From Stigmatella aurantiaca DW4/3-1 (GTDB lineage: Bacteria; Myxococcota; Myxococcia; Myxococcales; Myxococcaceae), in contig NC_014623.1 in NCBI RefSeq assembly GCF_000165485.1, positions 8,016,893-8,080,892 on the forward strand: a stretch of 64,000 nt of DNA. The letters run 5' to 3'. The translations under genes were made by a program, and so were the position numbers. Shown here one piece after another: positions 5,070-52,421 of this stretch. The notes beneath the pieces are model-generated. The model did no database searches. It had not been told where the DNA came from and saw only the letters and a program-made list of their open reading frames with translations. Within the stretch, counting starts at the first letter, position 1. Each line of letters begins with the position of its first letter.

Positions 5070-5084
5070 TGGCCCGCAGCGAAA

Positions 5085-5110: not shown

Positions 5111-5139
5111 CGGAACGCTCACGCGAGCGCGAACGGGGA

Positions 5140-5754: not shown

Positions 5755-5775
5755 GGTGTTCTCCAGTGAGAAAGT

Positions 5776-6672
5776 TCAAGCGCCCAGCGCGAAGCTGCGC
5801 ATGGACAAAGTTCCGTGATGGAAGCCCTCGAAAATCGGGATGAGACGGTCCTCGGGGAGGGCAGCACCGAGGACGAAATAGAGCGGTAAGAAATGCTCGG
5901 GGGTTGGATGCGCCAGCCGGGCATTCGGTGCGCGGGTCCACTCCAAGAGCTGTTGGAAGTCACGGGCCTCGAGCCGGTCCGCCACCCACGCATCGAACGC
6001 CTGCGCCCAGGACTGTGGGGGCGCGGCCTTGTCCTGAAACACCACGCGGCGCAGGTTGTGGCTCACACCGCCACTGCCCAGGAGCAACACCCCTTGGGCA
6101 CGCAAGGGGCGCAGCGCCTCCCCCATGCGCATCACCTCCGCCGCCGAGGCTTCCCGAGACATGGACACCTGCACCACGGGCACGTTCGCCGCGGGCAGCG
6201 CCAGCCGCAGCGGCACCCAGGTACCATGATCCAATCCCCGCTCGGCATCCGCCACGCAGGAGAAGCCCGCGGCCGACAGGCGCTCCACGGCCTCCCGGGC
6301 CACCGAGGGCTCTCCCGGGCAGGGATATGTCAGCCGGTAGAGGGCCTCCGGAAAACCACCAAAGTCATAGATGAGGGACGGCGTGGGGCTCGCGGTGACA
6401 CGCACACCGCCGGGAGTCTCCCAGTGCGCGGAGACCACCACGATGGCCCGGACGCCGCCCACGTTCTCGCCAAAGCCCCGGAGCGCCTTCGGGTAGGCAT
6501 CCGCATCCAACGCCACCATGGGCGACCCATGGGAAATGAACGCCGCGGGGGCCATGGCGGGGGTCCGCCCAGCGCCGGGTCCCCCCGTCTCCGAGACACT
6601 CGCCACGCCGACGGCCGCCGCCATCTGGAGCACCTCGCGCCTGTCGAACCCAGAGCCCATGCTCCTGCCCAT
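5776..6672 (-). CDS. DODA-type extradiol aromatic ring-opening dioxygenase (LigB fold)
   Basis: This 298-residue protein belongs to the class III extradiol / 4,5-DOPA dioxygenase family, which opens catecholic rings using a metal held by histidines. Visible family features are FISHGSPMVALD near residue 48, VVSAHWETPGGVRV, LDHGTWVPLRLALP and GSGGVSHNLRRV, which supply the histidine ligands. The N-terminus has DRREVLQMAAAVG followed by a hydrophobic, small-residue stretch, a possible Tat signal. A second ATG 12 nt downstream (MGSGFDRRE) is an equally good start. It is the first gene of a pair with yceI and is divergent from the sigma-54 activator, which may control it. The natural substrate is unknown. 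Confidence 0.88.
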   Translation of the reverse strand: MGRSMGSGFDRREVLQMAAAVGVASVSETGGPGAGRTPAMAPAAFISHGSPMVALDADAYPKALRGFGENVGGVRAIVVVSAHWETPGGVRVTASPTPSLIYDFGGFPEALYRLTYPCPGEPSVAREAVERLSAAGFSCVADAERGLDHGTWVPLRLALPAANVPVVQVSMSREASAAEVMRMGEALRPLRAQGVLLLGSGGVSHNLRRVVFQDKAAPPQSWAQAFDAWVADRLEARDFQQLLEWTRAPNARLAHPTPEHFLPLYFVLGAALPEDRLIPIFEGFHHGTLSMRSFALGA

Positions 6673-6796
6673 AGCAAGGTGGAGACCAAGGTCAAGGATC
6701 GTTCAAATGCCCGGAATCACTTCGATAGTTGGGGTTCCATTCACATGGAAGCTCTCAAAATGATAGGTTTTGCCATCCTTTTGAGAGAGGTGTGGC

Positions 6797-8431
6797 ATGG
6801 CGAATCTTCTGGATCTGAGGGAGCTGCTGTCGTTCGAGCCGGGCGGCGGCCTCATTCACTTCGCGGGCCAGCGGGCCCTGGTGATGGACGCCGTGGCGCT
6901 GGGGCTGCTGCGCAAGGAGCTGATCTCCATGCTGGGCATGACGGCCGCGCGCGGCATCCTGACGCGGCTGGGGTATGCGCACGGCTGGCGGACGGCCGAG
7001 GCCATGAAGACGGCCATCCCCTGGCCGGACGAGAGCGTCTGGCGCCGGGCGGGGGGACGGCTGCACACCTTGCAAGGCCAGGTGCTGCTCGAGCCCGTGG
7101 AGCGGGGGCCGGAGGATGGACCCGTGCCGTTCGCGGAGGCCCTGTGGCGGGAGTCCTACGAGGCCGAGCAACACCTGCTTCACGTGGGCCAGGCGGATCA
7201 ACCCGTGTGCTGGAGCCTCACCGGGTTCGCCAGCGGGTACATGAGCTACTGCAACGGCAAGGCCATCTACTGCCTCGAGACGCGGTGCGTGGGCAAGGGG
7301 GACGCGGTCTGCCAGATCATCGGCAAGTCCGCCGAGGAGTGGGGCTCCGCGTGCGTGGAGGCGCTGAGCTTCTATGAGACGCGGTGCATGGAAGGGGTGC
7401 TGGGCCAGGTGACGGAGGCCCTCAAGGAGGCCGAGCAGAAGCTGCGGGTGAAGCGGCGGACGCTGGCGCGGGTGGGGGGCGACTCGGAGGACCCTTCCGG
7501 GCTGGTGGTCCGCACGGAGGCCATGCGGCGGGTGCTGTCCCTGGCGCGCCGGGCGGCGAAGGTGGACTCCACCGTCCTCATCACCGGCGAGAGCGGCGTG
7601 GGCAAGGAGCGCATCGCCCGGCTCATCCACGACGAGTCGGCGCGGGCCCACAAGGCGTTCGTCGCCGTCAACTGCGCGGCCGTCACCGAGAGCCTCCTGG
7701 AGAGCGAGCTGTTCGGCCACGCCAAGGGGGCCTTCACGGGCGCCACGCATGACCGCCCCGGCCTCTTCGAGGCCGCCAACGGGGGCACCCTCTTCCTGGA
7801 CGAGGTGGGGGAAGTCCCTCCCGCCATGCAGGCCCGGCTCCTGCGCGCGCTCCAGGAGAAAGAGGTGCGGCGCGTGGGCGAGAACCAGAACCGCAAGGTG
7901 GACGTGCGCGTGGTGGCGGCCACCAACCGCACCCTCCTGGAAGAGGTGAGCGCGGGCCGCTTCCGGCAAGACCTCTACTACCGGCTGCGCGTCATCGAGC
8001 TGAAGGTGCTCCCGCTCCGGGAGCGGCGGGAGGACATCCTGCCGCTGGCGAGACAGCTGCTGGCCGAGGCCTCCGAACGGCTGGGCCGCAAGGTGGCCTC
8101 CTTCTCACCGGAGGCGGCGGACCAACTGCTGCGCTACGGGTGGCCGGGCAACGTGCGCGAGCTGGCCAACGCCATCGAGCGCGCGGTGGCCCTCCACGAG
8201 GGGGCGCGCATTGAACGGGACGACCTGCCCGAGGAGGTCCGCGAGGCCCAGCCCAGCTTCCTGCCGGGAAGTTCCCCCCGAACCCTGGAGGACATGGAGC
8301 GCGAGTACATTCTCGCGGTGCTGGCGCGCAACAGCGGCAACCGCTCCCGCACCGCGGAACAACTCGACATCGGCCTGGCCACGCTCTACCGCAAGCTCAA
8401 GCAGTACGGCCACCCGGAGGCGCCGAACTGA
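6797..8431 (+). CDS. Sigma-54-dependent activator, XylR_N/V4R sensor, AAA+ and Fis-type HTH
   Basis: The 544-residue regulator has an XylR N-terminal sensory region (residues about 1-110) followed by a V4R small-molecule-binding domain with several cysteines (about 130-195). A coiled linker comes next, then a sigma-54 AAA+ domain: Walker A GESGVGK at 264-270, the sigma-54-contact loop GAFTGA at 311-316 and Walker B GGTLFLDE at 329-336. The end is a Fis-type helix-turn-helix (NRSRTAEQLDIGLATLYRKLKQ). By family analogy it binds an aromatic ligand and activates sigma-54 promoters. The ribosome site GAGAGAGG precedes the ATG. It is divergent from the ring-opening dioxygenase, which fits aromatic sensing, but no -24/-12 promoter was recognised in the 124-nt gap. 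Confidence 0.93.
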   Translation: MANLLDLRELLSFEPGGGLIHFAGQRALVMDAVALGLLRKELISMLGMTAARGILTRLGYAHGWRTAEAMKTAIPWPDESVWRRAGGRLHTLQGQVLLEPVERGPEDGPVPFAEALWRESYEAEQHLLHVGQADQPVCWSLTGFASGYMSYCNGKAIYCLETRCVGKGDAVCQIIGKSAEEWGSACVEALSFYETRCMEGVLGQVTEALKEAEQKLRVKRRTLARVGGDSEDPSGLVVRTEAMRRVLSLARRAAKVDSTVLITGESGVGKERIARLIHDESARAHKAFVAVNCAAVTESLLESELFGHAKGAFTGATHDRPGLFEAANGGTLFLDEVGEVPPAMQARLLRALQEKEVRRVGENQNRKVDVRVVAATNRTLLEEVSAGRFRQDLYYRLRVIELKVLPLRERREDILPLARQLLAEASERLGRKVASFSPEAADQLLRYGWPGNVRELANAIERAVALHEGARIERDDLPEEVREAQPSFLPGSSPRTLEDMEREYILAVLARNSGNRSRTAEQLDIGLATLYRKLKQYGHPEAPN

Positions 8432-9329: not shown

Positions 9330-9527
9330 TCAAGCCTTCGGACGGTAGAACAACGTGATGGTCAGACAGTGGAACTCCTTGTCCGACGACTGCGTCACCA
9401 CACGGTCCACCACCTCCAGGTTCGGGTTCTCCTTGAGCCACTTGGTGATGTTCTCCCCCATGTTCTCGCGATCACGCGCGAGCGTGGTGGAGAACACCTT
9501 CACTCCCGTGAAGTTGGTAACGCCCAT
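9330..9527 (-). CDS. Small conserved-type protein of unknown function (65 aa)
   Basis: The 65-residue product, beginning MGVTNFTGVKVFSTTLARD, has a balanced composition and alternating beta and helical pattern ending in the hydrophobic strand CLTITLFYRPKA. It looks like a small globular cytoplasmic protein. No motif was recognised. The middle phrase ITKWLKENPNLEVVDRVVTQSSDKEFHCLTIT resembles small myxobacterial hypothetical proteins whose role is unknown. A GC-rich hairpin follows the stop codon. It is separated by about 115 nt from the next minus-strand gene and likely has its own promoter there. Confidence 0.7.
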   Translation of the reverse strand: MGVTNFTGVKVFSTTLARDRENMGENITKWLKENPNLEVVDRVVTQSSDKEFHCLTITLFYRPKA

Positions 9528-9641
9528 TCCGACCCTCGTTTAAACCAGAGATTCCGCACGTTTACCGCGACTACGGACGTCCATCAAGAAACGGCGCCGA
9601 TTTTCCGGCCCGCGCGCCGGATTCTTCCCTGGGCGATGTTC

Positions 9642-9851
9642 TCAGCGCGTCACCCGGCGGCCCTGGCAGCCAAGCTCGTCCTTGCAGGCGGGGCCGATTC
9701 CATCCGGGTGTGCGTGAAAGGGCGTCTTGTCGCTCTCCTCCACCCCACAGAGCACACACTTGCGCTTCCGGTTGCGGCGCTCGGCCCGCCGCTGCTCGGC
9801 GATTTCCTTGGCCCGCTCACGGGCCGTCTTCGCGTCCACCTCGTTGCTCAT
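9642..9851 (-). CDS. Small zinc-finger-like protein (69 aa)
   Basis: The start chosen is the ATG of MSNEVDAKTARERAKE. The longer open frame to 9932 runs into the end of the thiolase gene and has no coding character there. The protein has a strongly basic helical N-terminal half (ERAKEIAEQRRAERRNRKRK) and a C-terminal half with CVLCG, then a further Cys in PACKDELGC. That four-cysteine pattern (CxxC...CxxxxxC) may bind zinc. A nucleic-acid or ribosome-associated role is conceivable, but no family was recognised. It lies 32 nt downstream of the thiolase gene on the same strand. Confidence 0.65.
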   Translation of the reverse strand: MSNEVDAKTARERAKEIAEQRRAERRNRKRKCVLCGVEESDKTPFHAHPDGIGPACKDELGCQGRRVTR

Positions 9852-9883
9852 CTCATGTCCCGGTTGAGAAATCCGTCCCCAGC

Positions 9884-11080
9884 TCAGAGCGCCTCGACCA
9901 GAAGCGCAATGCCCTGGCCCCCGCCAATGCACGCCGAACCGATACCATAGCGGGCCCCCCGGCGCTTCAGCTCGTACACGAGGCTCAGGGTGATGCGCGC
10001 GCCCGAGGCGCCCAGCGGGTGCCCCACCGCGATGGCTCCGCCGTTGACGTTGGTCCGATCACGTGGCAGGCCCAACTCCTTCTCCACCGCCAGGTACTGC
10101 GGGGCAAAGGCCTCGTTCACCTCGAAGAGATCCACGTCTCCCAAGCCACACTGGGCGCGCTCCAGCAGCCGCCGGATCGCCGGCGCGGGGCCGATGCCCA
10201 TCACCTTGGGATCACACCCGGAGATGCCCCAGTTGACCAACCGCGCGATGGGCTTCAGCCCGTGCTTCTCCACGAAGCTCCGGGTGGCCATCACCATGGA
10301 GCCGGCCCCGTCACAGATGCCGCTGGCCGCGCCCGCGTGCACCACCCCGTCCTTCTTGAAGAGCTTGGGCAGCTTGCGCAGCCCCTCCACGGAGGTGTCC
10401 GGACGGTTGTGCTCGTCGCGGGCCACCACGGTGTCCCCCTTCTTGCCCTTCAGGGTCACCGGGGCAATCTCCTCCTGGAACCGGCCCGCCTCCTGCGCCG
10501 CGGCGAAGCGCTTCTGCGAGAGGACGGAATACTCGTCCACCGCGTCCTGGGAGAGCTGGTAGTCCACCGCGAGCTGCTCGGCCGTCAACGCCATGGCCAT
10601 GCCGGTGTGGCTGTCCGTGAGGGCGCTCCAGAGCATGTCCTCCAGGCCCCCCTTGCCCAGCGGCAACCCCCAGCGCGCGCCCCGGATGACGTGGGGCGCC
10701 TGGCTCATGGACTCGGTCCCTCCGGCCAGCACGCAGGAGGCCTGCTCGGTGAGCATCATCTCCGCGGCGGTGACGAAGGCCTGGAAGCCCGAGCCACACA
10801 GCCGGTTGACGCCCAGCGCCGGCACCGGCACCGGCACGCCCGTGCGCAGCCCCACGTGGCGAGGCAGGTAGATGGCGTCCGCGCTCGTCTGCACGACGTT
10901 GCCGTAGACGACGTGCTCGATCCGCTCGGGCGAGACGCCGGACTGGGCGAGGGCCGCCTTCGCGGACTCCACCCCCAGATCCGTGGCGCTCAGCTCCTTG
11001 AGGCTTCCCCCATAGGTGCCAAACGGGGTGCGCTTGCCGGACAGGAAATAGATCTCTTCGGTCTTGGAGGCGTTCTTCAT
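9884..11080 (-). CDS. Thiolase family acetyl-CoA acetyltransferase
   Basis: The 398-residue enzyme has the full thiolase active site: nucleophile Cys95 in NRLCGSGFQA, His354 in GHPLGASGAR and acid/base Cys384 in SACIGGGQG. Conserved GGTESMS and NEAFA phrases are also present. Thiolases condense two acyl-CoA molecules or cleave beta-ketoacyl-CoA; the sequence alone does not separate biosynthetic from degradative members. The N-terminus (MKNASKTEEIYFLSGKRTPFG) is typical of a cytoplasmic form. No beta-oxidation genes are adjacent, though an acyl-CoA dehydrogenase with its ETF lies in the same window at 53-56 kb. Confidence 0.95.
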   Translation of the reverse strand: MKNASKTEEIYFLSGKRTPFGTYGGSLKELSATDLGVESAKAALAQSGVSPERIEHVVYGNVVQTSADAIYLPRHVGLRTGVPVPVPALGVNRLCGSGFQAFVTAAEMMLTEQASCVLAGGTESMSQAPHVIRGARWGLPLGKGGLEDMLWSALTDSHTGMAMALTAEQLAVDYQLSQDAVDEYSVLSQKRFAAAQEAGRFQEEIAPVTLKGKKGDTVVARDEHNRPDTSVEGLRKLPKLFKKDGVVHAGAASGICDGAGSMVMATRSFVEKHGLKPIARLVNWGISGCDPKVMGIGPAPAIRRLLERAQCGLGDVDLFEVNEAFAPQYLAVEKELGLPRDRTNVNGGAIAVGHPLGASGARITLSLVYELKRRGARYGIGSACIGGGQGIALLVEAL

Positions 11081-11163
11081 GGGCAGGTGCTCCGGGGCCG
11101 CGGGCCCGCGGGTCCTTACCTACTCACAACCGGCGCGGCATGCACGCACGACGTGAACTCGTT

Positions 11164-11817
11164 TCAGCCCCCTTGGGGCTTGCCTCCCAGGAAGGCGCTG
11201 GCGAGGATGGCCACCGCCGCCACCGTCCACAGCACCCCGGCGAGGTTCTGCCGGCGAATCTCCTTCTGTCCGAGCCCTCGGTACCACGATCGCCCGGTCT
11301 CCACGCGGCCTTCCCAGGTAAACTCCCCGGCGGGGTGCAGCCCCTCCAGCCGCTTGAGGTGGGCCCGGAGAAGCCGCTCCGGGGGCGCCTCCTCCAGCCC
11401 GCCAGACCGGTAGAGACCTGGAATCTCGAGCGCCGTCCGCTTGTAACCGGCGGTGATGACGAACCCTCCCGAGGCCAGCGGCGTCAGGAAGTAGAGGCGC
11501 GGCCTCCCCTCCTGGGACAGGTGGAGCGTGGCGAAGACGCGCTCGCCCGGGTGCGCGAAATCATACGAGCGGGTGGCACGCCGCAGCCGGGGCTTCTCCT
11601 CGTGGCTGCCAAGCGCCACGAACCCCAGGGCCAGGAGCCTGTCCGCCAGCGGCTCGAGTTCCTGCGGCAATTCCATCTGGTCCCCGGGGGCTTCGGGCTC
11701 CACGCGGACACTGGCCGGAAACAGGAAAAGCCAGGCCCGCCACGCGTTGAGGATGAGCAGCGCCACGGCGAGCCCGAGACCCGCGAGCACGGTGGCCAGC
11801 TCGACGAAGACGTTCAT
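11164..11817 (-). CDS. Membrane protein with N- and C-terminal helices, unknown function
   Basis: The 217-residue product starts with a hydrophobic helix (FVELATVLAGLGLAVALLILNAW) and ends with a second (AGVLWTVAAVAILASAFLGG). Between them is a soluble domain of about 150 residues with mixed alpha/beta character. No known family was recognised. It lies 36 nt downstream of the large kinase-ATPase gene on the same strand, so it may be co-transcribed with it; whether it is a partner is not shown by the sequence. Confidence 0.7.
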   Translation of the reverse strand: MNVFVELATVLAGLGLAVALLILNAWRAWLFLFPASVRVEPEAPGDQMELPQELEPLADRLLALGFVALGSHEEKPRLRRATRSYDFAHPGERVFATLHLSQEGRPRLYFLTPLASGGFVITAGYKRTALEIPGLYRSGGLEEAPPERLLRAHLKRLEGLHPAGEFTWEGRVETGRSWYRGLGQKEIRRQNLAGVLWTVAAVAILASAFLGGKPQGG

Positions 11818-11853
11818 GAGACCCGTTCATCCCGCGGAAACATGGGCGGCACT

Positions 11854-14800
11854 CTAGCCCGCGCGCAGGTCCCCCCGCTGCACCCCTTCCTCGCGAACCC
11901 GGGCGGCCGCCGCCAGCAACCCGGGGGCCTTCGCCTCGCGGAAGGCCTTCTCCGCGGCGTCGAGCGCCTGGGACGCCTCCTGGGGCGAGCGCCCTTGCAA
12001 CAGCTCCGCCAGGGCCAGGTTCACCCGCCCCGTCTGCAGCAGGTTGCGCGACTCGTCGGCCACCGCCAGCGCCCGCTTCAGGTGCGCGAGCCCCTCCTCC
12101 ACGGGGACCAGGGGCGCCAGGGCCCTCCGGGCGAGGATCTCGTCAAAGGGGTTCTCCGTCAGGGGCGCCAACGCCCGCGCCAGGGCGGCCTCCGCGGCCT
12201 CGCGCGCGGCGCCCTCTCGGCCCTGGGCCCGTTCGAAGCGCGACTGGTAGACGCGCAGCAGCGTCTCCATCCGGCAGTGCCCCTCCCGGACGGAGACCAG
12301 GGCCTTGGCGAGGGACTCCCGGGCGGTGCGCACGTCCCCGAAGAGCACGTCCCGGCACGCCGCATACACCTGGAGGGTGCGCTGCAAGACCCGGTCATCG
12401 GGCAGCCCCCGGGCCACCATCTGTCCCCGGGCCAGCGCCGCCTCCACCATCTCGTGCTCGCCCCGCTCCAGGTAGAAGGGCGGCAGGTAGATGGCCAGGT
12501 TGCGCTCGGGCAGGCGCGGGTTGCCCAGCTTGCGAATGAGCTCCGTCTTCTCCGCATTCACCGGGGCCAGCGCCACGGCATCCCCGGTGAAGGAGGCGCG
12601 GACAAGCTGGGTGAAGAGGTGGTTCATGCGGATGTCGCTGAACCCATACGCCTCCGCCACCTCGAAGCCGTCGCGCGTGGCCTCCGCGTCCAGTGGCTCG
12701 CCGCGCAGGGCGCGAACCATGTTCAGGAAGTAGCACCCCATGCCCAGCGCCCACGCCAACCACCGGGACGGATGGCCGCCCACCGCGCCCCGGAAGGCGC
12801 GCAACCGCTCCACCTGCTCGCGCTGGGCCCGGAGCACGCCCGCGAAGTGCCCCGTCTGCAAGCTCAGCCCCGCCCGGGCGATGAGCACCCCGGCCCGGTA
12901 CGGAGAATCCACCGGCTGCTCTGCCCCCAGCCGCTCCACCAGCGCCTGGAGCTCTTCCGTGCGGCCCATGACGGCCAGGGAGATGGCCTGGAGGATCTGC
13001 AACTCCGCCTTCTTCCAGAAGACATCCACGGGCCGCAGGGGCGCCTCCAGGGAAATGCTCCGGAAGACGTGGTTCAGCCGTCCGGCCCGATCCCCCTCGG
13101 GCGCCGTGCGGGCCGCATCGAGCTGATCGAGCGCCTCGGCGCGGCCCGCGGCGAGATCCACCGTGGCCTCCCAATGGCCGAAGAGCTTCTCCGTGTACGT
13201 CAGCGTGGTGAGCGGCTCGCTCGTGTGACTGACCTCGGCCAGCGTGGCCCACGTTTGAACGAGCTGGGCGTTGCGCTCCGCAGACGGAGGCTCCTGCTCC
13301 AGGAGACACGCCGCTTCCTTCAGCAACTGCGTGGCATCTTGCAGCGCCTTGGCCTCGATGGACGCGTGGCCCGCGCGCAGCAGCGGCTCGATGGCGCGCC
13401 GGGGCTGGGTGGACCGGGAGAAGTGGTAGCCCACGGCCCGCTGCGCGGCCGGACTGTCTCCACCGAGCGACCGGAGCACCTCGGCGACACGGCCGTGGAA
13501 GGCCCGGCGCGCCTCCTCGGACGTGCTGTCATAGAGGGCCTGGTGCACCGCATCGTGGGTGAAGACGTAGCGCCCCTCGGAGAGCTGGAGGAACTGCCGC
13601 GCGATGATGTCATCGAGCGCCTGGAACAGATCCACTTCGATCATGCCCGCAAGGGCCCGCACCATGGGCAGATCCAGGCTGCGCCCCGCGGGGGTCAGCC
13701 GGCGCAGCAGCGCCACCCGGTCCGGGGGCACCGTGTCGAGCCGGGCCAGGACCGCCTCCTCGATGGTGGCTGGCAACGGACAGGTGGAGAGGTCGGCCTC
13801 GGCACGCCACCGGCCCCCCACGCGCCGCAGCGCCTCCTCTTCCACCAGCGCGCGCAAACACTCCGTGGCGAAGAACGCATTGCCGGCGGTGGTGGTGTGC
13901 AGCCGGGTCACGAAGTCGGGTGGCACCTCCAGCCCCGGGAGCGCCTGCTGCACGAGCGTCTCCATGTCCCGGGCCGTCAAGGGCGCCAGCTCCATGCACG
14001 TGGAGAGCCCCTCGTCCACCGTCTGGAAGACGAGGCTCAGCCGGTTCAACAGGTCCGGACGGAAGGAGCCGACCACCAGACCGCGCGAGCGGTGCAGCGC
14101 CCGGATGATGACATTGAGCACCTCCACCGTGGCGGCGTCCGCCCACTGGAGATCCTCGAAGCACAGAACGAAGGTGTGCCGCATCGCCAGCGTCTGAAGC
14201 CACTCGGTGAGTGCGCCAAAGACGGCGATTTTCTCGGCATCCTCGTCCTTGAAAACAGGCCGCGTGCCGCACGCCAGCGCGGGCACCAGCCGGCCCAGCA
14301 CCGGGCCCAGACGCTCGCCCAGCTCCGTGGGCGTGAGCGGGAAGAGGCAGCGCAGGGCCTGGCCCACGGGGGCCAGGGGCGCGAGCCCTTCGGCCCGGCA
14401 CTGCCCCAGCCCATAGGCCATCTCCGCCAGCTTGGCCTGCAGCTCGAACTCCTGAAGCAGCCGGGACTTGCCCACGCCCGTGGGCGCCCCGATGAGCATC
14501 GCGCGGGACTGGCCCCACTCGGCCTCCGCCAGGCTGTTCATGAGCCGCTCCATCTCCAGCTCGCGGCCGACGACCTCCGGCACGTGCAGGTAGCTGGCAC
14601 GGGCCGCCAGCGGCTCCTCGGGCAGGGGCTGTCCGCTGGCGTGACAGAGCGCGTCCAGCAGCACCACCGCGTCCTGGAAGCGATCGCGGGGGTCCTTGGA
14701 CAGCAGCATGAGGATGATCGCCTCGAGCGCGGGCTCGACTGGACAGAGCGTCGAGGGCTTCGGAGGCGGGCGCGTGAGGTGATCCGCCAGCAGCGCCGCC

Positions 14801-43393: not shown

Positions 43394-44314
43394 TCATGCC
43401 CCCGCCAAGGGCCGCTCGCGCCAGCGGTCCCACAAGGCCGAGCCCACCTCCGACACCACCACGCCCAGCACGATGAGGCTGCCCCCGCTCCACTCCCGGG
43501 GCCCCAGCGTCTCGTACCCCAGCGACACCGAGAAGAGCGCGGTGAACACCGGCTCCATCGCATAGATGAGGGCCGCGCGCACCGCGCCGGTGCGGGCCTG
43601 GGCCCACGTCTGCACGCTGATGGCGATGGCGCTGCCGAAGACGCCGCAGTAGACCACGGCCCCGACAAAGGCCCCCGTCCATGCCACCCGCGTCTCCACG
43701 AAGGGCAGACACGCCGCCGAGAGCAGCGCCACGCCCCAGAGTTGCACGGCGACGAGCGCGCGGGCCCCTTCCGCCGGCGCGAACCGCCCCGTCAAGACGA
43801 TGTGCAGGGCGTAGGACAACGAGCCCACCAGCGTGAGCAGGTCCCCCCAGGAGAACGCCCCCCTGGCGTCCGCGCCCCCCTGGGTGAGGAAATAGAGCCC
43901 CACGGCCGAGAGCACCACCCCCACCAGCGAGGGGATGCGAGGCACCTGGCGAAAGAGCACCAGCGACAGCAGCGGGACAAAGAGGACACACAGGCCCGTG
44001 ATGAAGGCCGAGCGCGCGGGCGAGGTGCGCGTCAGCCCCACCGTCTGGAACAGGTACCCGCTGAAGAGGACGAGGGACAACAGGGCCCCGCGCCGCAGGG
44101 TCTCCCGGGAGAACAACCGCCGCCCGGCCACAGCGCTCAGCACCACGGCCCCCAGGCCGAACCGCAGGACGAGAAACGAGAAGGGATCCGCATGGCCCAG
44201 CGCGTCCTTCACCACCAAGAAGGTGGTGCCCCAGAACACGGTGAGCAGGGCCAAGGCGCCGTCCGCCCGGAGATGGGCCCGGCGCTCCCGCGAAGCAGTC
44301 ACTTCATCGCCCAT
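43394..44314 (-). CDS. EamA-type DMT family transporter
   Basis: The 306-residue protein has ten predicted membrane helices in two EamA halves. The first begins ADGALALLTVFWGTTFLVVKDAL and the second repeats at FVGAVVYCGVFGSAIAISVQTWAQ, with the family-like AALIYAMEPVFTALFSVSLGYETLGPREWSGG. Such proteins export small metabolites or amino acids. It begins 10 nt after the S24/GNAT gene, so it is likely the last gene of the 44.3-52.4 kb run. Whether it exports the peptide-derived product is open; DMT carriers usually move small solutes, not peptides. Confidence 0.9.
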   Translation of the reverse strand: MGDEVTASRERRAHLRADGALALLTVFWGTTFLVVKDALGHADPFSFLVLRFGLGAVVLSAVAGRRLFSRETLRRGALLSLVLFSGYLFQTVGLTRTSPARSAFITGLCVLFVPLLSLVLFRQVPRIPSLVGVVLSAVGLYFLTQGGADARGAFSWGDLLTLVGSLSYALHIVLTGRFAPAEGARALVAVQLWGVALLSAACLPFVETRVAWTGAFVGAVVYCGVFGSAIAISVQTWAQARTGAVRAALIYAMEPVFTALFSVSLGYETLGPREWSGGSLIVLGVVVSEVGSALWDRWRERPLAGA

Positions 44315-44324
44315 TCCCCGCCCA

Positions 44325-45290
44325 TTACCTCAACGTGCGCTCCAGCACCACCAAGGGCTTGCTCCCCCCCGAGGCATCCCATTCGGCATTGACCCGCCGG
44401 ATGAGCTCGGGCGAGGAGAAGCGAAAGCCCATCCGCCGGAAGGTCCGCAGGGAGGCGGCGTTGTCCTCGTCCACGTCCGCGAAGATGCACGCCTCGTCCT
44501 GCTTGCGCGCCGCCTCCACCAGACAGGAGAGGAGCCGGTGGGCCACGCCCATTCTGCGTGCTCGCGGCGCCACCACCAGCGAGCGGACCCAGAGTCCCTC
44601 CAGGGCCAGCCCTTCCTCCCGGTAGCTGTCCAGGTAGGCGAAGCCACACAGGCGGCCCGCCGCGTCGAAGGCTCCCGCCGCTGCCCCCACCGCGCCCCCC
44701 TCTCGCGCCCACCGGCCCAGCAGTTGGCGGCGCAGGAACGTCGAGGACACCAGGAGCCGCTCCCCGGCGAACACCAGGAGCGCATCCAGGTCCTCGGCCC
44801 GAAGCAGGCGCACCTCGAGCCGCCCCAACCACCGCGCCCGCACGGGGCGCGACCACCCCGAGAAGGTGAAGTCCCTCAACCGCCGGACCGCCCCCCTCGC
44901 CAGGGGCCGGGCCCACAACGCGGAGGCCAACCACTGCCCCAGAAAGAGCGAGGGCCGTGTCACCCGGGGCAAGGGCAGAATCCACCACCCCCGGCGCAGG
45001 GCCGTCACCCGCCCAAGCGGAACCCCCGCGGGATCGCCGTGGCCCAGCAACGAGGCCGTCTCCAGGGGGCCCGTGGACACCACCACGTGCGCGATGAGTC
45101 TGCGCCCGACCCTCACCAGCGCCACATCGCCCCGGGACAGCTCCTCCGGCCCGCAGCGCAACACCTGGACCGAGTCCCCACTGCGCAGCAAGGGATACAG
45201 GCTCCTGCCCGCCCCCCGCAGCCAGAGCCGGCGGCCCAGGGCCGTGGACTCGACGAAGTCCGCGAGATCAACCGGGTGTGTGCCAACCAT
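44325..45290 (-). CDS. Fusion of S24/S26 peptidase-like domain and GNAT acetyltransferase
   Basis: Residues 1-100 resemble an S24/S26 peptidase fold: LRGAGRSLYPLLRSGDSVQV holds a nucleophile-like Ser30, followed by SRGDVALVRVGRRLIAHVVV with His68 and then HGDPAGVPLGRVTAL. The Ser/His arrangement is SipW-like rather than the Ser/Lys of LexA. A linker with a basic stretch follows, and residues about 157-321 are a GNAT domain with the acyl-CoA loop VVAPRARRMGVAHRL. Such fusions are not usual. The start overlaps the HPr-kinase-like gene by 23 nt. A role in cleaving and acylating the nearby small peptide is inference. Confidence 0.82.
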   Translation of the reverse strand: MVGTHPVDLADFVESTALGRRLWLRGAGRSLYPLLRSGDSVQVLRCGPEELSRGDVALVRVGRRLIAHVVVSTGPLETASLLGHGDPAGVPLGRVTALRRGWWILPLPRVTRPSLFLGQWLASALWARPLARGAVRRLRDFTFSGWSRPVRARWLGRLEVRLLRAEDLDALLVFAGERLLVSSTFLRRQLLGRWAREGGAVGAAAGAFDAAGRLCGFAYLDSYREEGLALEGLWVRSLVVAPRARRMGVAHRLLSCLVEAARKQDEACIFADVDEDNAASLRTFRRMGFRFSSPELIRRVNAEWDASGGSKPLVVLERTLR

Positions 45291-46035
45291 GAAGCCAGTC
45301 CCTCACGAAGCCCGCCGCGGCGGCGTCCTTCCGGAAGACGAACCGGCGGAGCTCGACACTTTGGGTGATGCGAACCAACCGCTGGAGAACCTCCCCCTGC
45401 GAAGCCTCGCCCGGCAACGGCCGGAAGACCTGCGCCATCATCGCCGGGATGGCCTCGTGGGCGGCCACCGTCTCCAACCGCTCCTCGCCGCCCTTCGCCA
45501 GCAACAACACCGCAACCAGCCTCGCCCGGGCGAGCGAGGAGGGCAGGTCCAGATCCGAGCAGAACGGGCTGCCCTCGACGTGCGCCCCGGGGTAGAGCCC
45601 CAGCACCTCGTCCGAGAGCACCTCGGCCCCCGCCTCGCGGGCGCACAACCGGGTGAAGGTGGACTTGCCCGCCCCACTGGGCCCGATGGCCACCACCGCC
45701 CGGCCCTCGAAGGCCACGCCCGCGGCATGCAGCAGCAGCCCCCCCTGGCGCAGCGTGGCCAGTTGCAGCCCCACCCGCAGCGCCAGCTCGGTATCCAGAA
45801 ATGCCTGGGGAGGCTCCACCCGCACCACGTCGCCCTCCACCCGGAACCGGGGACCGGAGGGCCGTCGAGGGTCGAGGGGCGTGCTCGGCCCCTCGGGCAG
45901 GGCTCCCGCCCGGAGGCTCAAACGGGGAACGCCCGCTTCGGCCAGGAAGGGGGCCAGCGCGCACCGGGCCCCCACCTGGGTCAGCAGCCCCTCGTCCACA
46001 CCCACGCTCCACTCCCCGAACCGCAGTAGCCGCAT
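45268..46035 (-). CDS. HPr kinase-like (HprK-type) P-loop protein
   Basis: The 255-residue protein has a P-loop GPSGAGKS at 118-125 just after GGLLLHAAGVAFEGRAVVAI, and the HPr-kinase-like acidic motif in AEVLSDEVLGL, with a typical C-terminal helix pair. True HPr kinases phosphorylate the HPr protein of the PTS; no PTS gene is near. Relatives in lasso-peptide and other RiPP clusters, together with PqqD-like proteins, phosphorylate a peptide serine. Its place 20 nt after the small peptide gene fits that. It overlaps the S24/GNAT gene by 23 nt. Confidence 0.85.
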   Translation of the reverse strand: MRLLRFGEWSVGVDEGLLTQVGARCALAPFLAEAGVPRLSLRAGALPEGPSTPLDPRRPSGPRFRVEGDVVRVEPPQAFLDTELALRVGLQLATLRQGGLLLHAAGVAFEGRAVVAIGPSGAGKSTFTRLCAREAGAEVLSDEVLGLYPGAHVEGSPFCSDLDLPSSLARARLVAVLLLAKGGEERLETVAAHEAIPAMMAQVFRPLPGEASQGEVLQRLVRITQSVELRRFVFRKDAAAAGFVRDWLHGWHTPG

Positions 46036-46055
46036 CCGGGCCCTCGCCGCTTCCC

Positions 46056-46193
46056 TCAGCAGGCCCCCGTTTCCGGGTCGATGATGCAGCTGGGCGTGAA
46101 GAGGTCCGGAACGAGAATCCGCTCCGAGCGCACCTGGGGCGGCGCGTACACCTTCTTCTTCTCCGCCTTCACCGGTTGCACCGTGGTTGCCAT
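46056..46193 (-). CDS. Small peptide (45 aa), candidate RiPP-like precursor
   Basis: The product is MATTVQPVKAEKKKVYAPPQ followed by VRSERILVPDLFTPSCIIDP and ETGAC. The N-terminal part has KKVYAPPQV, which resembles the YxxP leader motif bound by PqqD-type recognition proteins in lasso and related RiPP clusters. The C-terminal part carries Cys36 and Cys45 with Thr33, Ser35 and Thr42 as possible modification sites. The ribosome site GGAGACC directly follows the stop of the FG-GAP gene, 7 nt before the ATG, so translation is coupled. The HPr-kinase-like gene follows after 20 nt. Precursor function is inference; no core cyclase was found. Confidence 0.65.
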   Translation of the reverse strand: MATTVQPVKAEKKKVYAPPQVRSERILVPDLFTPSCIIDPETGAC

Positions 46194-46200
46194 GGTCTCC

Positions 46201-49200
46201 TCAGTAATACACCACGACCCGGGCTGGATTCGACTGACTATCGCCCACGGCGAGGTCCATTTTTCCATCCCCGTTGAAGTCCAGGACGGTCAGGCTGATT
46301 CCAAACGAGGTCGTGGATGCCAGCTTGGACTGCCAGAAGCCATTCTCCTGGCCCAGGTCGAACTCGGCGCCCGGAATGCCCTGGTTGTAGAAGACGGCCG
46401 CGGCGTTCTGCCCGACCACGTTCTGGCCCACGGCGATGTCGGCGCGTCCATCGCCGTTCAAGTCCCCCAGGGCCAAGGCGTTGCCGAACCGGCCGCCGCC
46501 GACGATCTCCAGCGGGGCCGTGGGGAAGCCGGAAGCGCCCCCATCCCGGTACACGAAGACCTTGTTCTGGGTCGCCGAGGAGGCCACCAGATCCAGCCCC
46601 GGGCCGCCTGCCAGGTTCACCCCGCCGAAGGCCTCGTTGCCAAAGCCGTTCTGCGAGTTGCCCGTCGTATCGGGCCCCTGGTGAAGCACCTGGAGCGCGT
46701 CGGTGGTGGACACGTTCCGGCCCAGGGCGTGCACCGCGGCGCCTGAATAGACATAGAGGTTGTTGACCCGCTCGTGGGAAGCCGGGAGGGTGAAGTCCGC
46801 GACGCCATCGCCCGTGATGTCGCCCAGGCGGGCGTAACCGCGGGAGCGTCCGAAGAAGACCATCTCCGTGGGGGCCGTGAAGACCTTGTCGGACTTGCTC
46901 GTGAGCACGACACAGGCCGAGGTGGCATTGCAGCCCGTCCCCAGGGCCCGCCAGGCCTCCTGCGTGCGGCTGTAGAAAAGGTAGACCTTTCCGGGCGTCT
47001 CGCCGTGCGAGCTGAGCAGCAGTTCGTGCAGCCCGTCCCCATTGATGTCCTGGATCATCTTCACCGAGCCGCCCAGCGTGGCCCCGGTGATGTTCGTGTC
47101 ATTGCGGAACTCGATGGGGCCCGCCGTGTCCAGCGTCTGATTCTTCCGGCCAAAGTAGAGAAACGCTCGCCCAGCGTTGGACGTCCACCCTCGCGCGCCC
47201 ACCAGCAGGTCCGCCACGGGCTCCGAGGTGGCATTGCCGGCATCCCCCACGTCGAAGTCGCTTCCGAAGGCTTGAGTGGCCGTCTCCGGGACCGTCAGCT
47301 CCTGGCGGACCGGCGGGGAGGCCACCGGATCGCTGGTGCCGTAATACACGTACGCCGAACCCGGAACGCCCAGGACCCCCGTCACCACCAGGTCTTCCTT
47401 GCCATCCGCGTTCAGATCTCCCCTCGCGGAAATATAGGTGGCGTAGCTGTTGCTCGCGGCGCCTGGGTTCGTCACCGTCACCTGCCGCCAGAAGTTGTCG
47501 ATCGGCGGCTGCACGGCGAAGGCCGCGTAGTTGCCGATCTCGTCCCTGGGGCGGAGCTGAATGGAGTACCGGGCCAGGGGCGGCAACGTCAGCGTGTAAG
47601 CCGTGGCCGTGGCCGGCAGCAGGTTTCCCGTCTCCTGCTTCACCTTCCCGCCGAAGAAGACCGACTCGTTCTCGATGCCGTTCGGAAGCTGGGCGTTGAC
47701 CGTCCACCGCAGGTCATACCCCACGGGCATGCCGGACAGCCCATCGTCCCCACTGGCCGTCCAGGACACCTGCACCTTGGCCGCCCGCTCCTGGCCCGTC
47801 ACCAAGGCCATCGTCACGGTGGGCACCGCCGGGGGCACCACGTCCACGGTGGCCGCGACGGTGTGGCGCGCCGTGTTCCCGGACGCATCCACCACGCGTA
47901 CCTCGAGCGTGCCCTGCGTGTTGTGCGGCAACGTCACGGGCACATCCAGGGTCTCCGGAGACGCGGAGATCGCGAACTCCGACGAGACGGGCTCTCCCTT
48001 GTAAAACGCCCGCACCTTGCTCCCCACGCCCTGCGTCACGGTGAGCGTGAACACCGCATTGGCATCCCCGCCCGGGGACATGTCCACCACGCGGTCCGGC
48101 GCGGGGGACGGGAAGAGGTAGGCGTTGGTGCTGGCGACGAAGAAGAGCGCCGTGGGGGATGGCGAGATGGAGGTGATGACGGGCGGCGTGATGTCCACCG
48201 TCACATCGACGAAGTCGACGGTCCGCAGCCCCGAGATGTTGAAGACCTCCACGGCCAGGCGTGTCTGCTCGCCGTCCGCGAGCGTGAGGTCGAAGAAGAA
48301 CTGCCCGGTCACCGGGTCCGCGGTGGTGCTCGTCACCGGAGGGATCGCCCCTCCCCGATAGAGGAACACCTCGCGGCCACTGCACGCCGGCGTGGTGCCG
48401 ACCAGACGGTACTGCAACCCCTCCACCGCAGGATCCAGGTCGTCCTGGGCGAGCAGCGTGGCCACCGGCTCACTGGGCGTGGTGAGCGTGATGGCACAGC
48501 CGGGGATCCGCACATCGACGTTGGCCTTGGCATCGATGCCCGCGTTCCCAGCGGTATCCCGGGCCACGGCCGAGACCGTCTGCACGCCCACGGGGAAGTT
48601 GAGCGTGCCCTGGGCGACGCCCGAGACGACCGGCAAAGTCCCCACGACCGTCCCGGGAGCACTCCCCACCTGCGAGAGGATGCTCACCGTGCTCACGTCG
48701 TCTCCTCCCACGTTGACCTGAACGGGGATGTCCGTGTTGTTGTAGACAGCGCCCGCCGCGGGGGCCACCAGCGCCACGGTGGGCGCATCCAGGTCCACCG
48801 TCAGGGTCCGGACCACCGAGGTCTCGTTGCCCGAGGTGTCCACGGCCACCAACGAGAGCGTGTACTCCGTCTTCCCGGTGCCCGGCACGGTGAACTCATG
48901 CGTGGCCACCAGCTCGGCGGGCGTCAGCGACACCGGACTTCCACCGGGGGAGAGCCACATCCGCACGCCGCCCGTTCCCACATCCGCGCTGGTGTTGACG
49001 ACCGCCCGGAGCTGGAAACCGTTGGCCGGCGAGCTGTCATCCGCGAGGCCAAACTCGGCGCGCGTGGGCGCGCTCACCACCAGCGAGGGCGCAACGCGGT
49101 CCAGGCGGAACGAGAGGAAGGCCGCCGTGTTGAGGGGATAGAAGGGGGTCGGATTGAGCACCCGGTTCTGATTGCCCGCGGCATCCGTCACCATGACGAC

Positions 49201-52005
49201 GAGCGCGTAGTCCGCCTCGATGCCCGTGGGCATCGACTCGAGGGAGACGGTGGCCACGCCCCCGCTGGCAGTGCCCTGGCCATAGAGGATGCCGGGATTG
49301 CTGGCGCTGCGGACCTGAACCGGCCGCCCATCCTCCAGCCCGTCAATGGTCACCCGGAGCTGCACCGAGCCCGAGGGAAGCTCGGCGGCATTGAGCCGCC
49401 GGTCCCCATTGGCGTCTCCCACCAGCTCCACCGCGCGCACCACCGGCTCGGTGCTGTCCACGGTGATGTTCACCGACTGGGAGACGGAGATGGCCCCATC
49501 GTCGAGCACGGCCCGCAGGGCATAGCGCCCATCGGGGAAGGCGAAGTCCGGGGTGAAGGCCGGCACATTGGCGGCCAGGGTGTACCAGCCCGAGCCGTCC
49601 CGGCAGGGCGCGGCATCCTGGCTCGGGGCCACGCTCGCGCAGATGTCCACGACGGCGTTCGCCGAACGTCCATTCGCGGCGTATTTCAGGGGCGCCTGGA
49701 TGCCCGACTCCTCGGGCGTGACGTCGGAGTTGACGATGTAGACCGGGGCGGGTGACGCCGCGGGAATCTCCAGGGCGATGTTGCCCGGCTGGGTGTCCAC
49801 CAGGAGCAGCACCGTGGCGCAGGCCACCGTGCCTCCAGGGCCCAGGAGCTCGGCGCGCAACACGTTGGAGCCCTCTTCCAGCTCCACGGTGTTGAACCGC
49901 TTCGTCAGCTCATTCGCGGCGACCGGCACCGAGGCGATCTGCGTGGCCCCGCGCAGCAACCGCAGCGTGCCAGCCGCCTGGGTGTTCATCCGCAGGGTGA
50001 CCGCGACGCTCAGCCCGCCGCTGGGCAGCACGATGCCATCGGTGGCGCCCAGGTAACGGCCGGTCGCGGGGGTCTCGAAGGCCAGCGTGCTCGGGGCGAA
50101 GGCCAAGGTCAGCTCCCGGAATTGCTCGCGGGTGTTGCCCGCCAGATCGGTGGCGGCGACCGTCAGCGAGCAGGTGCCGCTGAGCGGCACGGACACGTCC
50201 CTCAAGACGAGCGTGCCCGCGGCATCGGCCTGTCCCGCCACCCCCGCGGGCATGGCGCACCCCGTGACGAGCACCGAGGCATACGGATCCGTGTTCACCG
50301 CGAGGGCCACCTGCATGCCCGGAGCCAGGGACGTGTCGTTGAGCCCAAAACCCAGGAGGGTCTCTCCGGCGGGCACGCCGCGCACATTGAACGTTAGCGC
50401 GGGCGGCGTGGAGTCCAGCTCCAGGGAGAGCAGCTGGCTCGTGGCGCCGCCGGGACAGAATGCCAGGAGCTGGTACGCCCCATCGCTCTCCAGGAGGAGC
50501 GGAACCACCGCCGACCCCGAGGCCGCGACGGCGGTGCCCCGTCCCCGCTCGTTGCCATTCCCGTCCAGGGCCACCACGGTGACCGGCCCAGCCCCCGACT
50601 CCACGCGGACCGAGGTGTTCATCCCCGTGGTGGGAAGCAGGATGCCATTGTCCGGAGAGATGATGCGGCAAACCGGCTGGCCCGTGATGACCGTGACGGT
50701 CTCCGCCAGGCACTGCTCCAGGCCCGCTGCGTTGCGGACACAGGCCTGAACGGTATTGGCCCCTCCCGCAAGCTGCGCGAGGAAGGACGTCTTGCGCTCA
50801 CCATCCGTCACCGCCCGTTGAGGACTGGCGAACTTGCCGGTGACGCTGGTGAAGAACGTCACCTCGGTGCCCGGGGGCAACGAGTCCGCCTGGACGCCCA
50901 CGCGGACCTGCACCCCGTTGTCGAACCGGTTGTCCACCGGATCCTCCGAGAGGGTCTTCGGCACCGTCAACTTGAGGGTTGGCGCCGTGCTGGCCACCGT
51001 GACGGGCACCTCCCGGGTGGAGACGTTGCCCCCCGCATCCGAGACGCGCAGCGTGAAGCGGTAGTCGCCATCGACCGGGACCGTGACCGCGGGGAACGTC
51101 ACGCCCCCGGAGATGACGGGCGCGGACAGATCCGGCTCCCCCATGCGGGACAGGGTGGCCATCACCCCGGGCTCGGTACAGCCCACCGTGGCCTCCACCC
51201 GGAACGTCGTGGACGCCACCGCCGCCACCGGCCAGGCCAGCTCCACGCGCGGAGACACCGTGTCCAGCGTGATGTGGCGCCTGCCGGACGTCACCTCATC
51301 GTCGCCGTTGCGAACCACCGCGTAGCACTGGGCTTCCTGGGACTCGCACGCGAACTGGGACAGCGTCACCTCGACCTGCGTGGACCCATTGCCCGCCACG
51401 GTGAAATCCGTGGGAGGCACCCCACACGCCTGCTCGCAGTAGAGCGTGCCCTGCCTTCCCGACAGGCCCACGGCATTCACGCTGAAGCGCAGCTGGTAGC
51501 CGGGCGCATCCGGGTCCGCGTCATCCGTTTCGAGCAGCACCTGGCCCTCGGCGGGCTGCGTCAGATCCACCGACGGCGGCTCCGAGGTCACCGTGACGCT
51601 GATGCGCTGGGTGGCCGTGCGCCGCGAGCCGGCCTCTTCCACCGTCACCTGCAACACGTTGGTGCGCGGCGGCAACAGCGCCGCCGGGAAACGGGCCGTG
51701 TCCCCCTCGATGATGGCACTGGGCCCCGGCGTCCACCCCTGCTCGGACGGGGTGCGCATCTCCAGCTTGGCGCTGGACAGCTTCACCGGCCGGTTCGAGG
51801 TGTCCCGGGCCCGCACCACCACCTCGTGCTGGAAGCCGTCGGTGGCCGCGTCCTCATCGTCGGAGAGCACCAGCCGCTGCCCGTCCGTGGGCTTCTCGAA
51901 CCCCACCTCCAGCTGAGACTCCACCGGTGGCTCGCCACAGCTGCACCCGGACGCACACCACAGCGCCAGCCCCATCCACAGCCATTGCCACATCGATCGG
52001 CGCAT
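46201..52005 (-). CDS. Giant lipoprotein with Ig-like repeats and C-terminal FG-GAP/VCBS repeats
   Basis: The start MRRSMWQWLWMGLALWCASG with ribosome site GAGGGTGGGAG is preferred over the ATG at 52074. Cys21 after ASG is the lipidation site. Most of the 1934 residues are repeated Ig/cadherin-like beta domains with recurring SVTVTSEPPSVDLTQPA, TVSPRVELAWP and DSTPPALTFNV openings. The last 400 residues are FG-GAP/VCBS repeats with calcium loops such as DLNADGKED, DINGDGLHE, DITGDGVAD, DLNGDGRAD and DFNGDGKMD. It is a surface or periplasmic adhesin-like protein. The gene sits between pqqD-like and the small peptide gene. Confidence 0.92.
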   Translation of the reverse strand: MRRSMWQWLWMGLALWCASGCSCGEPPVESQLEVGFEKPTDGQRLVLSDDEDAATDGFQHEVVVRARDTSNRPVKLSSAKLEMRTPSEQGWTPGPSAIIEGDTARFPAALLPPRTNVLQVTVEEAGSRRTATQRISVTVTSEPPSVDLTQPAEGQVLLETDDADPDAPGYQLRFSVNAVGLSGRQGTLYCEQACGVPPTDFTVAGNGSTQVEVTLSQFACESQEAQCYAVVRNGDDEVTSGRRHITLDTVSPRVELAWPVAAVASTTFRVEATVGCTEPGVMATLSRMGEPDLSAPVISGGVTFPAVTVPVDGDYRFTLRVSDAGGNVSTREVPVTVASTAPTLKLTVPKTLSEDPVDNRFDNGVQVRVGVQADSLPPGTEVTFFTSVTGKFASPQRAVTDGERKTSFLAQLAGGANTVQACVRNAAGLEQCLAETVTVITGQPVCRIISPDNGILLPTTGMNTSVRVESGAGPVTVVALDGNGNERGRGTAVAASGSAVVPLLLESDGAYQLLAFCPGGATSQLLSLELDSTPPALTFNVRGVPAGETLLGFGLNDTSLAPGMQVALAVNTDPYASVLVTGCAMPAGVAGQADAAGTLVLRDVSVPLSGTCSLTVAATDLAGNTREQFRELTLAFAPSTLAFETPATGRYLGATDGIVLPSGGLSVAVTLRMNTQAAGTLRLLRGATQIASVPVAANELTKRFNTVELEEGSNVLRAELLGPGGTVACATVLLLVDTQPGNIALEIPAASPAPVYIVNSDVTPEESGIQAPLKYAANGRSANAVVDICASVAPSQDAAPCRDGSGWYTLAANVPAFTPDFAFPDGRYALRAVLDDGAISVSQSVNITVDSTEPVVRAVELVGDANGDRRLNAAELPSGSVQLRVTIDGLEDGRPVQVRSASNPGILYGQGTASGGVATVSLESMPTGIEADYALVVMVTDAAGNQNRVLNPTPFYPLNTAAFLSFRLDRVAPSLVVSAPTRAEFGLADDSSPANGFQLRAVVNTSADVGTGGVRMWLSPGGSPVSLTPAELVATHEFTVPGTGKTEYTLSLVAVDTSGNETSVVRTLTVDLDAPTVALVAPAAGAVYNNTDIPVQVNVGGDDVSTVSILSQVGSAPGTVVGTLPVVSGVAQGTLNFPVGVQTVSAVARDTAGNAGIDAKANVDVRIPGCAITLTTPSEPVATLLAQDDLDPAVEGLQYRLVGTTPACSGREVFLYRGGAIPPVTSTTADPVTGQFFFDLTLADGEQTRLAVEVFNISGLRTVDFVDVTVDITPPVITSISPSPTALFFVASTNAYLFPSPAPDRVVDMSPGGDANAVFTLTVTQGVGSKVRAFYKGEPVSSEFAISASPETLDVPVTLPHNTQGTLEVRVVDASGNTARHTVAATVDVVPPAVPTVTMALVTGQERAAKVQVSWTASGDDGLSGMPVGYDLRWTVNAQLPNGIENESVFFGGKVKQETGNLLPATATAYTLTLPPLARYSIQLRPRDEIGNYAAFAVQPPIDNFWRQVTVTNPGAASNSYATYISARGDLNADGKEDLVVTGVLGVPGSAYVYYGTSDPVASPPVRQELTVPETATQAFGSDFDVGDAGNATSEPVADLLVGARGWTSNAGRAFLYFGRKNQTLDTAGPIEFRNDTNITGATLGGSVKMIQDINGDGLHELLLSSHGETPGKVYLFYSRTQEAWRALGTGCNATSACVVLTSKSDKVFTAPTEMVFFGRSRGYARLGDITGDGVADFTLPASHERVNNLYVYSGAAVHALGRNVSTTDALQVLHQGPDTTGNSQNGFGNEAFGGVNLAGGPGLDLVASSATQNKVFVYRDGGASGFPTAPLEIVGGGRFGNALALGDLNGDGRADIAVGQNVVGQNAAAVFYNQGIPGAEFDLGQENGFWQSKLASTTSFGISLTVLDFNGDGKMDLAVGDSQSNPARVVVYY

Positions 52006-52070
52006 TCGACTCCCACCCTCTCCAGCGGCAGGCCCTGGGCCCGCGGCTCGCGACATCAGCGCAAGGAACC

Positions 52071-52421
52071 TCACGGCCCGAGCACCAGCACCTTCTTCGC
52101 CACGAGGAGCCGGAGAAAGGCGACCGTGTCCACTTCACACGCCTCCGGCTCCACCTCGAACTCGTCACACAGCACCGCCACGATGGCCGCCACCGTCCGG
52201 CGCCCATCCACCAGCTCCACGATGCGCTCGGCCACCTCGGACACCTGGCCCTGCGCATCCTCAAAGGTGTGCAGGTGCTCATCGGGCCCAGCGGCCAGCA
52301 GCCGCCCCCCCACGCGCTGCACCCCGGTCTCCGGGTGCAGCCGGGGCACGGCGCGCAGGACCTCCGGGCCCGCACCCGCGGGAGCCTTCGTTCCATCTTT
52401 GTTGGAAACGAATCGAGCCAC
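52071..52421 (-). CDS. PqqD-like RiPP recognition protein
   Basis: The 116-residue protein matches the PqqD family in PGVQ-like VPRLHPETGVQRVGGRLLAAGPD, then VAERIVELVDGRRTVAAIVAVLCDEF and FLRLLVAKKVLVL. PqqD-type domains bind the leader of a ribosomal peptide and present it to modifying enzymes. It is the first gene of the minus-strand run and lies 65 nt upstream of the giant lipoprotein. There is no pqq gene set nearby, so it is not part of cofactor biosynthesis. It is divergent from the Coa1-like gene, with a shared 250-nt promoter region in which nothing else was recognised. Confidence 0.85.
   Translation of the reverse strand: MARFVSNKDGTKAPAGAGPEVLRAVPRLHPETGVQRVGGRLLAAGPDEHLHTFEDAQGQVSEVAERIVELVDGRRTVAAIVAVLCDEFEVEPEACEVDTVAFLRLLVAKKVLVLGP

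Follow-up and report, generated by a model that had tools for sequence, protein, structure and literature searches.

Organization of the operon

The locus studied here raises the question of whether a 45-aa ORF, located between the gene of a giant lipoprotein and the gene of an HprK-like protein, encodes a RiPP precursor and, if so, what its neighbors would do to the product. It lies in the window, i.e. the whole 64,000-nucleotide stretch of Stigmatella aurantiaca DW4/3-1 DNA that was analyzed, and the host genome is one contig of 10,260,756 bases. The six genes form a single minus-strand run, and our check of the ORFs and gaps reproduced the genes, coordinates and spacings given in the original prediction. 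The features discussed below are as follows:

52071-52421, minus strand: PqqD-family discrete RRE, 116 aa (PF05402, E = 8e-12; aligned to PDB 9x90 and 5v1u)
46201-52074, minus strand: giant FG-GAP lipoprotein (PF01839, 4.9e-20; PF13517; PF19077)
46056-46193, minus strand: 45-aa precursor-like peptide MATTVQPVKAEKKKVYAPPQVRSERILVPDLFTPSCIIDPETGAC (ORF, conservation, synteny, dN/dS)
46131-46148, minus strand: predicted RRE-binding motif YAPPQV, residues 16-21 (Y16, P19 and V21 invariant among aligned homologues)
46059-46097, minus strand: predicted core TPSCIIDPETGAC, residues 33-45 (placed according to the LPP layout)
46089-46091, minus strand: codon of the predicted phosphosite Ser35 (LPP layout; 29 of 32 tabulated loci have a Ser/Thr at Y+17 to Y+20)
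45268-46035, minus strand: HprK-like P-loop kinase, 255 aa (TIGR04352, 1e-6, under the cut-off)
45661-45684, minus strand: P-loop GPSGAGKS of the HprK-like protein
44325-45290, minus strand: S26/SipW-type Ser-His-Asp peptidase-GNAT fusion (Ser30/His68/Asp86 invariant; PF00583, 2.8e-12)
43394-44314, minus strand: EamA/DMT transporter, candidate exporter (PF00892, 1.1e-33)

The PqqD and FG-GAP genes overlap by 4 nt when the FG-GAP protein is counted from its GTG codon; gaps of 7 and 20 nt separate the peptide gene from the FG-GAP and HprK-like genes, respectively, the HprK-like and S26-GNAT genes overlap by 23 nt, and the EamA gene follows after 10 nt. From the GTG codon the FG-GAP protein comprises 1957 aa; the length of 1934 aa reported earlier holds from the internal Met24.

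The small ORF is a conserved gene

An AGGAG Shine-Dalgarno sequence is located directly 5' of the peptide ORF. In comparison with the three closest homologues, all from the same genus and with unsaturated dS, the dN/dS values were 0.04-0.20, and for more distant homologues dS was mostly near or beyond saturation. A search with the 45-aa sequence found the peptide in 10 out of 59 related genomes (the window's own counted), and in all 10 it adjoins the FG-GAP, HprK and S26 genes. The gene order PqqD-lipoprotein-peptide-HprK-S26-GNAT-EamA is kept in related genomes between the same two flanking genes, which we take to be an ETF gene on one side and an MBL-fold gene on the other, indicating that the locus has been inherited in place within the window's family. 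Alignment of the homologues showed invariant residues that include Y16, P18, P19, V21, S23, E24, D30, L31 and F32, as well as P34, C36, D39, P40 and C45. When the peptide profile was compared with 195 genomes of the phylum, matches at E ≤ 0.1 were obtained in 28, though the weakest probably arose by chance. No family model covers the precursor (Pfam searched with the window peptide, NCBIfam with ten peptides).

For a broader comparison, DNA was fetched around HprK-like matches, genes in these loci were called with a simple procedure of our own, and the sequence 3' of each FG-GAP gene was inspected directly. A small ORF was present downstream of the FG-GAP gene in 33 of 33 homologous loci, which represent five families and approximately 20 genera (32 loci come from the peptide table; L076, where the motif starts too near the Met for the filter, was read separately). 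These ORFs encode 40-71 aa, with basic residues followed by [YW]xxPx[VILT] and a variable tail. A strict automatic test detected such an ORF 3' of 29 of the 33 FG-GAP genes and of 8 of 485 other genes, and seven of those 8 are propeller- or HprK-linked peptides, i.e. belong to related cassettes. The corresponding Fisher value of 6e-36 ignores the kinship of the loci and overstates their independence, because they share descent. Four loci escaped the automatic finder: L085, L091 and L096 have variant motifs (WxxP or PxT), and in L098 a second FG-GAP gene intervenes.

The 45-aa ORF is therefore a real gene that is conserved, evolves under purifying selection and has constant neighbors. DNA of high GC content yields many false ORFs, so that a spurious small ORF within a chance run of genes had to be considered; the dN/dS values and the downstream-ORF test rule this out, and together with synteny and the Shine-Dalgarno sequence they leave it a practically negligible probability. 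The neighborhood search suggested in the original prediction thus found the ORF conserved next to HprK and PqqD genes in other genomes, and the reading of the peptide as a RiPP-type precursor, encoded together with PqqD, a kinase of the HprK type and a Ser/His peptidase, is supported.

The PqqD protein and the leader motif

The PqqD proteins align with the lasso RREs of solved structure, TbiB1 (5v1u) and PbaB1 (9x90). According to the residue numbering in PMC13381572, Asp98 and Phe102 of the window PqqD correspond to D70 and F74 of LppB, of which D70 hydrogen-bonds the leader Tyr and F74 packs on the leader Pro (PMC13381572). Phe102 is invariant, and position 98 is Asp except in two cassettes with Glu. 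Ser61 lies at the position of LppB N33 and PbaB1 G42; all cassettes but one have Ser or Asn there. The class of leader motifs recognized by RREs is [Y/W]xxPx[L/V/I/A/F/Y] (PMC13381572), and the YAPPQV motif would be the element through which the discrete RRE binds the 45-aa precursor. Changes at PqqD positions 61 or 98 occur in three cassettes (Glu98 in L085 and L084, Ala61 in L096), which include both loci with a WxxP leader (L085 and L096); L084 keeps YxxP. Cognate recognition would predict such covariation between WxxP and the PqqD pocket, a small and post-hoc observation. Against the PqqD equivalog model TIGR03859, the protein scored 33.7 bits, below the cut-off of 46. A further PqqD-like stretch is present in the host genome at C1:5213021-5213224, inside a 666-aa open frame.

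The HprK-like, S26-GNAT and EamA proteins

The best NCBIfam match of the HprK-like protein, TIGR04352 (HprK-related kinase A), reached 28.1 bits against a cut-off of 200 bits, so far under the threshold of the named family that kinase activity is not certain, and no Pfam family scored above its cut-off. Over 20 diverse homologues, the P-loop GPSGAGKST, His103, Lys124 and Asp142-Glu143 are invariant. Searches of the PDB with the HprK and S26-GNAT profiles returned merely generic P-loop and GNAT chains, and single-sequence structure predictions (mean pLDDT of 34.8 and 40.3 for HprK and S26-GNAT, respectively) were unusable, leaving the HprK and S26 folds unconfirmed.

In the fusion protein, the S26 domain spans approximately residues 1-105 and the GNAT domain approximately residues 155-315. 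The S26 half has no Pfam match of its own; its identification rests on the invariant Ser30, His68 and Asp86, which stand in motifs of the S26 type, and on the PF00717 match of a homologue. The conserved elements are GxS(M/L)xPxLxxGD, H68 and D86, and the catalytic residues of LppS are S29, H68 and D93 (PMC13381572). An S26-type Ser/His domain was found near HprK in 26 of the 33 loci (L099 and L111 recognized by eye), and no recognizable S26 neighbor was present in the fetched DNA of L086, L089, L091, L092, L098, L101 and L103. In the genus of the window and among its close relatives, the GNAT half gives a strong match, and in many other lineages a weak one or none: it was unrecognized in L076, L079, L084, L085 and L093, though these keep the Ser/His domain, and it has diverged in L017/L018. 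This distribution suggests that the GNAT domain is accessory, and the acylation of the peptide contemplated in the original prediction is weakened by it.

The enzymes might instead serve another substrate, with HprK, PqqD and GNAT acting on the lipoprotein or on a polysaccharide and the small ORF having a regulatory or structural role. Fusion of the GNAT domain to the peptidase can be read this way, as can the frequent location of LPP and paeninodin clusters in polysaccharide loci (PMC13381572). We nevertheless regard this explanation as unlikely, since the peptide carries a [YW]xxP leader of the type bound by PqqD-type RREs, the PqqD pocket positions tend to shift with the choice of Tyr or Trp, and the active-site residues of S26 are retained in spite of variation in the GNAT half.

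The EamA gene is linked less tightly, at spacings from an overlap to approximately 1270 nt downstream; nevertheless, 24 of 33 loci have it nearby in the same orientation, among them L099 and L111, which represent two families with the surrounding synteny lost. Its product is a candidate exporter. In L014, L019 and L075, approximately 1.2-1.3 kb separates the S26-GNAT gene from the EamA gene; in L019 this spacer is a sodium/calcium exchanger gene (PF01699), and L014 and L075 carry genes of the same cluster.

Comparison with LPPs and other known systems

Linear Polyphosphorylated Peptides (LPPs; LppA/K/B/S/N/D) are RiPPs of Paenibacillus alginolyticus described in 2026 (PMC13381572). In the LPP pathway reported by Popov et al., three proteins (RRE, HprK-like kinase, SipW-type peptidase) bind the YxxPxV leader and process the peptide; the addition of phosphates to core Ser3, located at Y+18, and cleavage after Thr-1 were shown experimentally (PMC13381572). 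The window operon shares with LPPs a discrete RRE, an HprK-like kinase and a SipW-type Ser/His/Asp peptidase, has no cyclase, and encodes a peptide with a YxxPxV leader, a variable tail and a Ser close to the leader/core junction. The residues that hold the leader Tyr and Pro are present in its RRE (D98 and F102; S61 differs from N33), the kinase keeps the P-loop, His103 and Asp142-Glu143, with the named-family score under the cut-off, and S30, H68 and D86 point to a leader peptidase of the SipW type. By analogy, the cassette would work like an LPP system, yet it misses two LPP features, namely the full leader consensus and the combination of an NTP transferase with an ABC exporter. In contrast to the LPP leader YxxPxVLxHQxIxFETxxS, the myxobacterial peptides have YxxPxV and a nearby Ser, and lack HQ and FET; LPP clusters carry an NTP transferase and an MsbA-like ABC exporter, both absent from the window operon. 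The studied LPP has a longer core than the window peptide, and the window system differs further in its FG-GAP lipoprotein, GNAT fusion, Cys-bearing cores and EamA neighbor. LPPs were reported as restricted to Bacillota, patchy and mobile in distribution and of unknown function (PMC13381572), whereas the window system is found in Myxococcota and is vertically inherited. Two NTP_transf_5 genes, 5 kb apart, are present in the host genome at C1:1956044-1962001, far from the operon.

The operon is probably an LPP-like RiPP cassette of Myxococcota. Aligned with the LPP layout, the window peptide would have its leader/core junction near Phe32 and Ser35 as its phosphosite. In the proposed pathway, the HprK-like kinase would phosphorylate a Ser or Thr near the junction (Y+17 to Y+20 are the four residues past the Phe32 equivalent), and the S26/SipW-type domain would cut the leader near Phe32, releasing approximately TPSCIIDPETGAC, whose two Cys residues may pair as a disulfide. 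PqqD binding, phosphorylation and cleavage by the Ser/His domain had been proposed for this locus, and the proposal fits the chemistry shown in Paenibacillus (PMC13381572). On the other hand, LPPs have the same core of enzymes (PMC13381572), and the system is therefore not without precedent; no account of such a system in Myxococcota was found in the literature searched. It is correct that the operon encodes no cyclase, but it does not follow that the chemistry must be new or that enzymes lie elsewhere, because the LPP core needs none. A related cassette across myxobacteria suggests that LPP-type chemistry is older and wider than Bacillota, and the pathway predicts phospho-Ser35, cleavage after Phe32 and a contact between PqqD Asp98 and Tyr16 of the peptide.

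Paeninodin-like and other phosphorylated lasso peptides share a PqqD/B1 protein, an HprK-like kinase and a [YW]xxPx leader with the window system, but they depend on a macrolactam synthetase and a B2 peptidase, both missing from the window operon, which has an S26-type peptidase instead. A lasso assignment was rejected, as the operon has no asparagine-synthetase-like cyclase and PF13471 (B2) was not above the cut-off anywhere in the genome. More generally, the product could be a cyclized RiPP, lasso or other, with its cyclase encoded elsewhere; the YxxP leader and RRE type are those of lasso precursors, and a radical SAM gene adjoins HprK in relatives L111 and L102. Besides the two missing lasso enzymes, wide variation of the cores in length and composition, without a conserved lasso ring acceptor, makes such a product improbable. 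The HprK_rel_A (TIGR04352) and SynChlorMet (ScmC/ScmD, TIGR04249/TIGR04248) systems share the pairing of HprK-like and PqqD-like proteins, but the window scores were far under the cut-offs and the operon has no radical SAM gene. PQQ biosynthesis shares the PqqD fold family; the PqqA-E set is absent from the operon.

Linkage of the peptide gene to propeller genes

The FG-GAP lipoprotein has a lipobox (ASGC), retained in most homologues, followed by Ig-like repeats and C-terminal FG-GAP beta-propeller repeats. PqqD is located upstream in 32 of the 33 FG-GAP loci, the exception being a locus where the fetched DNA begins at the FG-GAP gene. The HprK-like gene lies closely downstream in most loci and 2-4 kb from the peptide gene in L086, L089, L091 and L092. 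Even in loci where the HprK gene is 2-4 kb distant or no S26 domain was found, the lipoprotein and peptide genes remain together; their products therefore appear to be partners at the cell surface, and we think that the peptide acts there together with the giant lipoprotein. The mature product would be exported, perhaps via EamA, and then act with or on the propeller. The tails contain 0-8 Cys over the 33 FG-GAP loci, mostly 2, 4 or 6, and Cys accounts for 15% of tail residues versus 0.4% of leader residues (19 peptides).

A second cassette, with the gene order S24/S26 peptidase (PF00717, 1e-7), PqqD, small lipoprotein, PQQ-type propeller, peptide, HprK and miaA (a tRNA modification gene of the IPPT family), was found in L100, L104-L109 and L112. 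These loci belong to groups g43 and g23, presumably Myxococcus- and Corallococcus-like genera. The propeller protein is secreted and comprises approximately 1030 aa, and the peptide reads YxxPAILWEQPFVALAQ..C.IPGESEC. Two propeller types, each encoded 5' of a YxxP peptide gene and an HprK gene, support a general link between propeller and peptide.

Quinohaemoprotein amine dehydrogenase offers a parallel: its propeller subunits bind small, cross-linked subunits. The peptide could likewise serve the FG-GAP propeller mainly as a subunit or ligand that carries Cys, matured by the enzymes for assembly and not as a free product. This possibility, to which we assign somewhat less than even weight, accords with the position of the peptide gene 3' of the lipoprotein gene in 33 of 33 loci, with the secreted PQQ-type propeller that precedes the second-cassette peptide, and with the mostly even Cys numbers. 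However, the lipoprotein is evenly conserved over its length, showing neither a hot spot nor an evident docking site. More tentatively, the LPP-like cassette may define a RiPP class of its own that is widespread in Myxococcota, the one phylum searched systematically, and in which a phosphorylated, leader-cleaved Cys peptide is the dedicated partner of a giant surface propeller of the FG-GAP or PQQ type, as its ligand, subunit or covalent attachment. The fixed linkage to the lipoprotein gene hints at a role of the peptide in working with a cell-surface beta-propeller, and the twenty-plus precursors with differing cores constitute a natural library.

Other loci

In distant Myxococcota, radical SAM genes are located directly beside genes of HprK and a YxxP peptide at L111:9325-10494 (with a SPASM domain) and L102:7971-9065. 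In L110, the genes at 3793-7326 and 9414-12005, for a peptidase of family C25 and a TonB-dependent receptor, lie on either side of HprK and of a YxxP peptide whose tail is rich in Cys and Gly. A gene of an aspartate-decarboxylase-like cluster (PF02261, 4e-17 in L095) is adjacent to or near the HprK homologue in L088-L092, L094 and L095, where HprK lies away from the FG-GAP gene or no FG-GAP gene was seen in the fetched DNA. A search of the contigs of named genomes with the HprK-alignment profile was dominated by P-loop matches and gave eight distant loci, none of them from named myxobacteria. One of the eight, L116 from an Anaerolineales MAG, contains a small ORF upstream of the HprK-like gene (L116:9385-9564) with a KKQAYQKPEL motif and a Cys-containing tail, and a PqqD-like ORF nearby.
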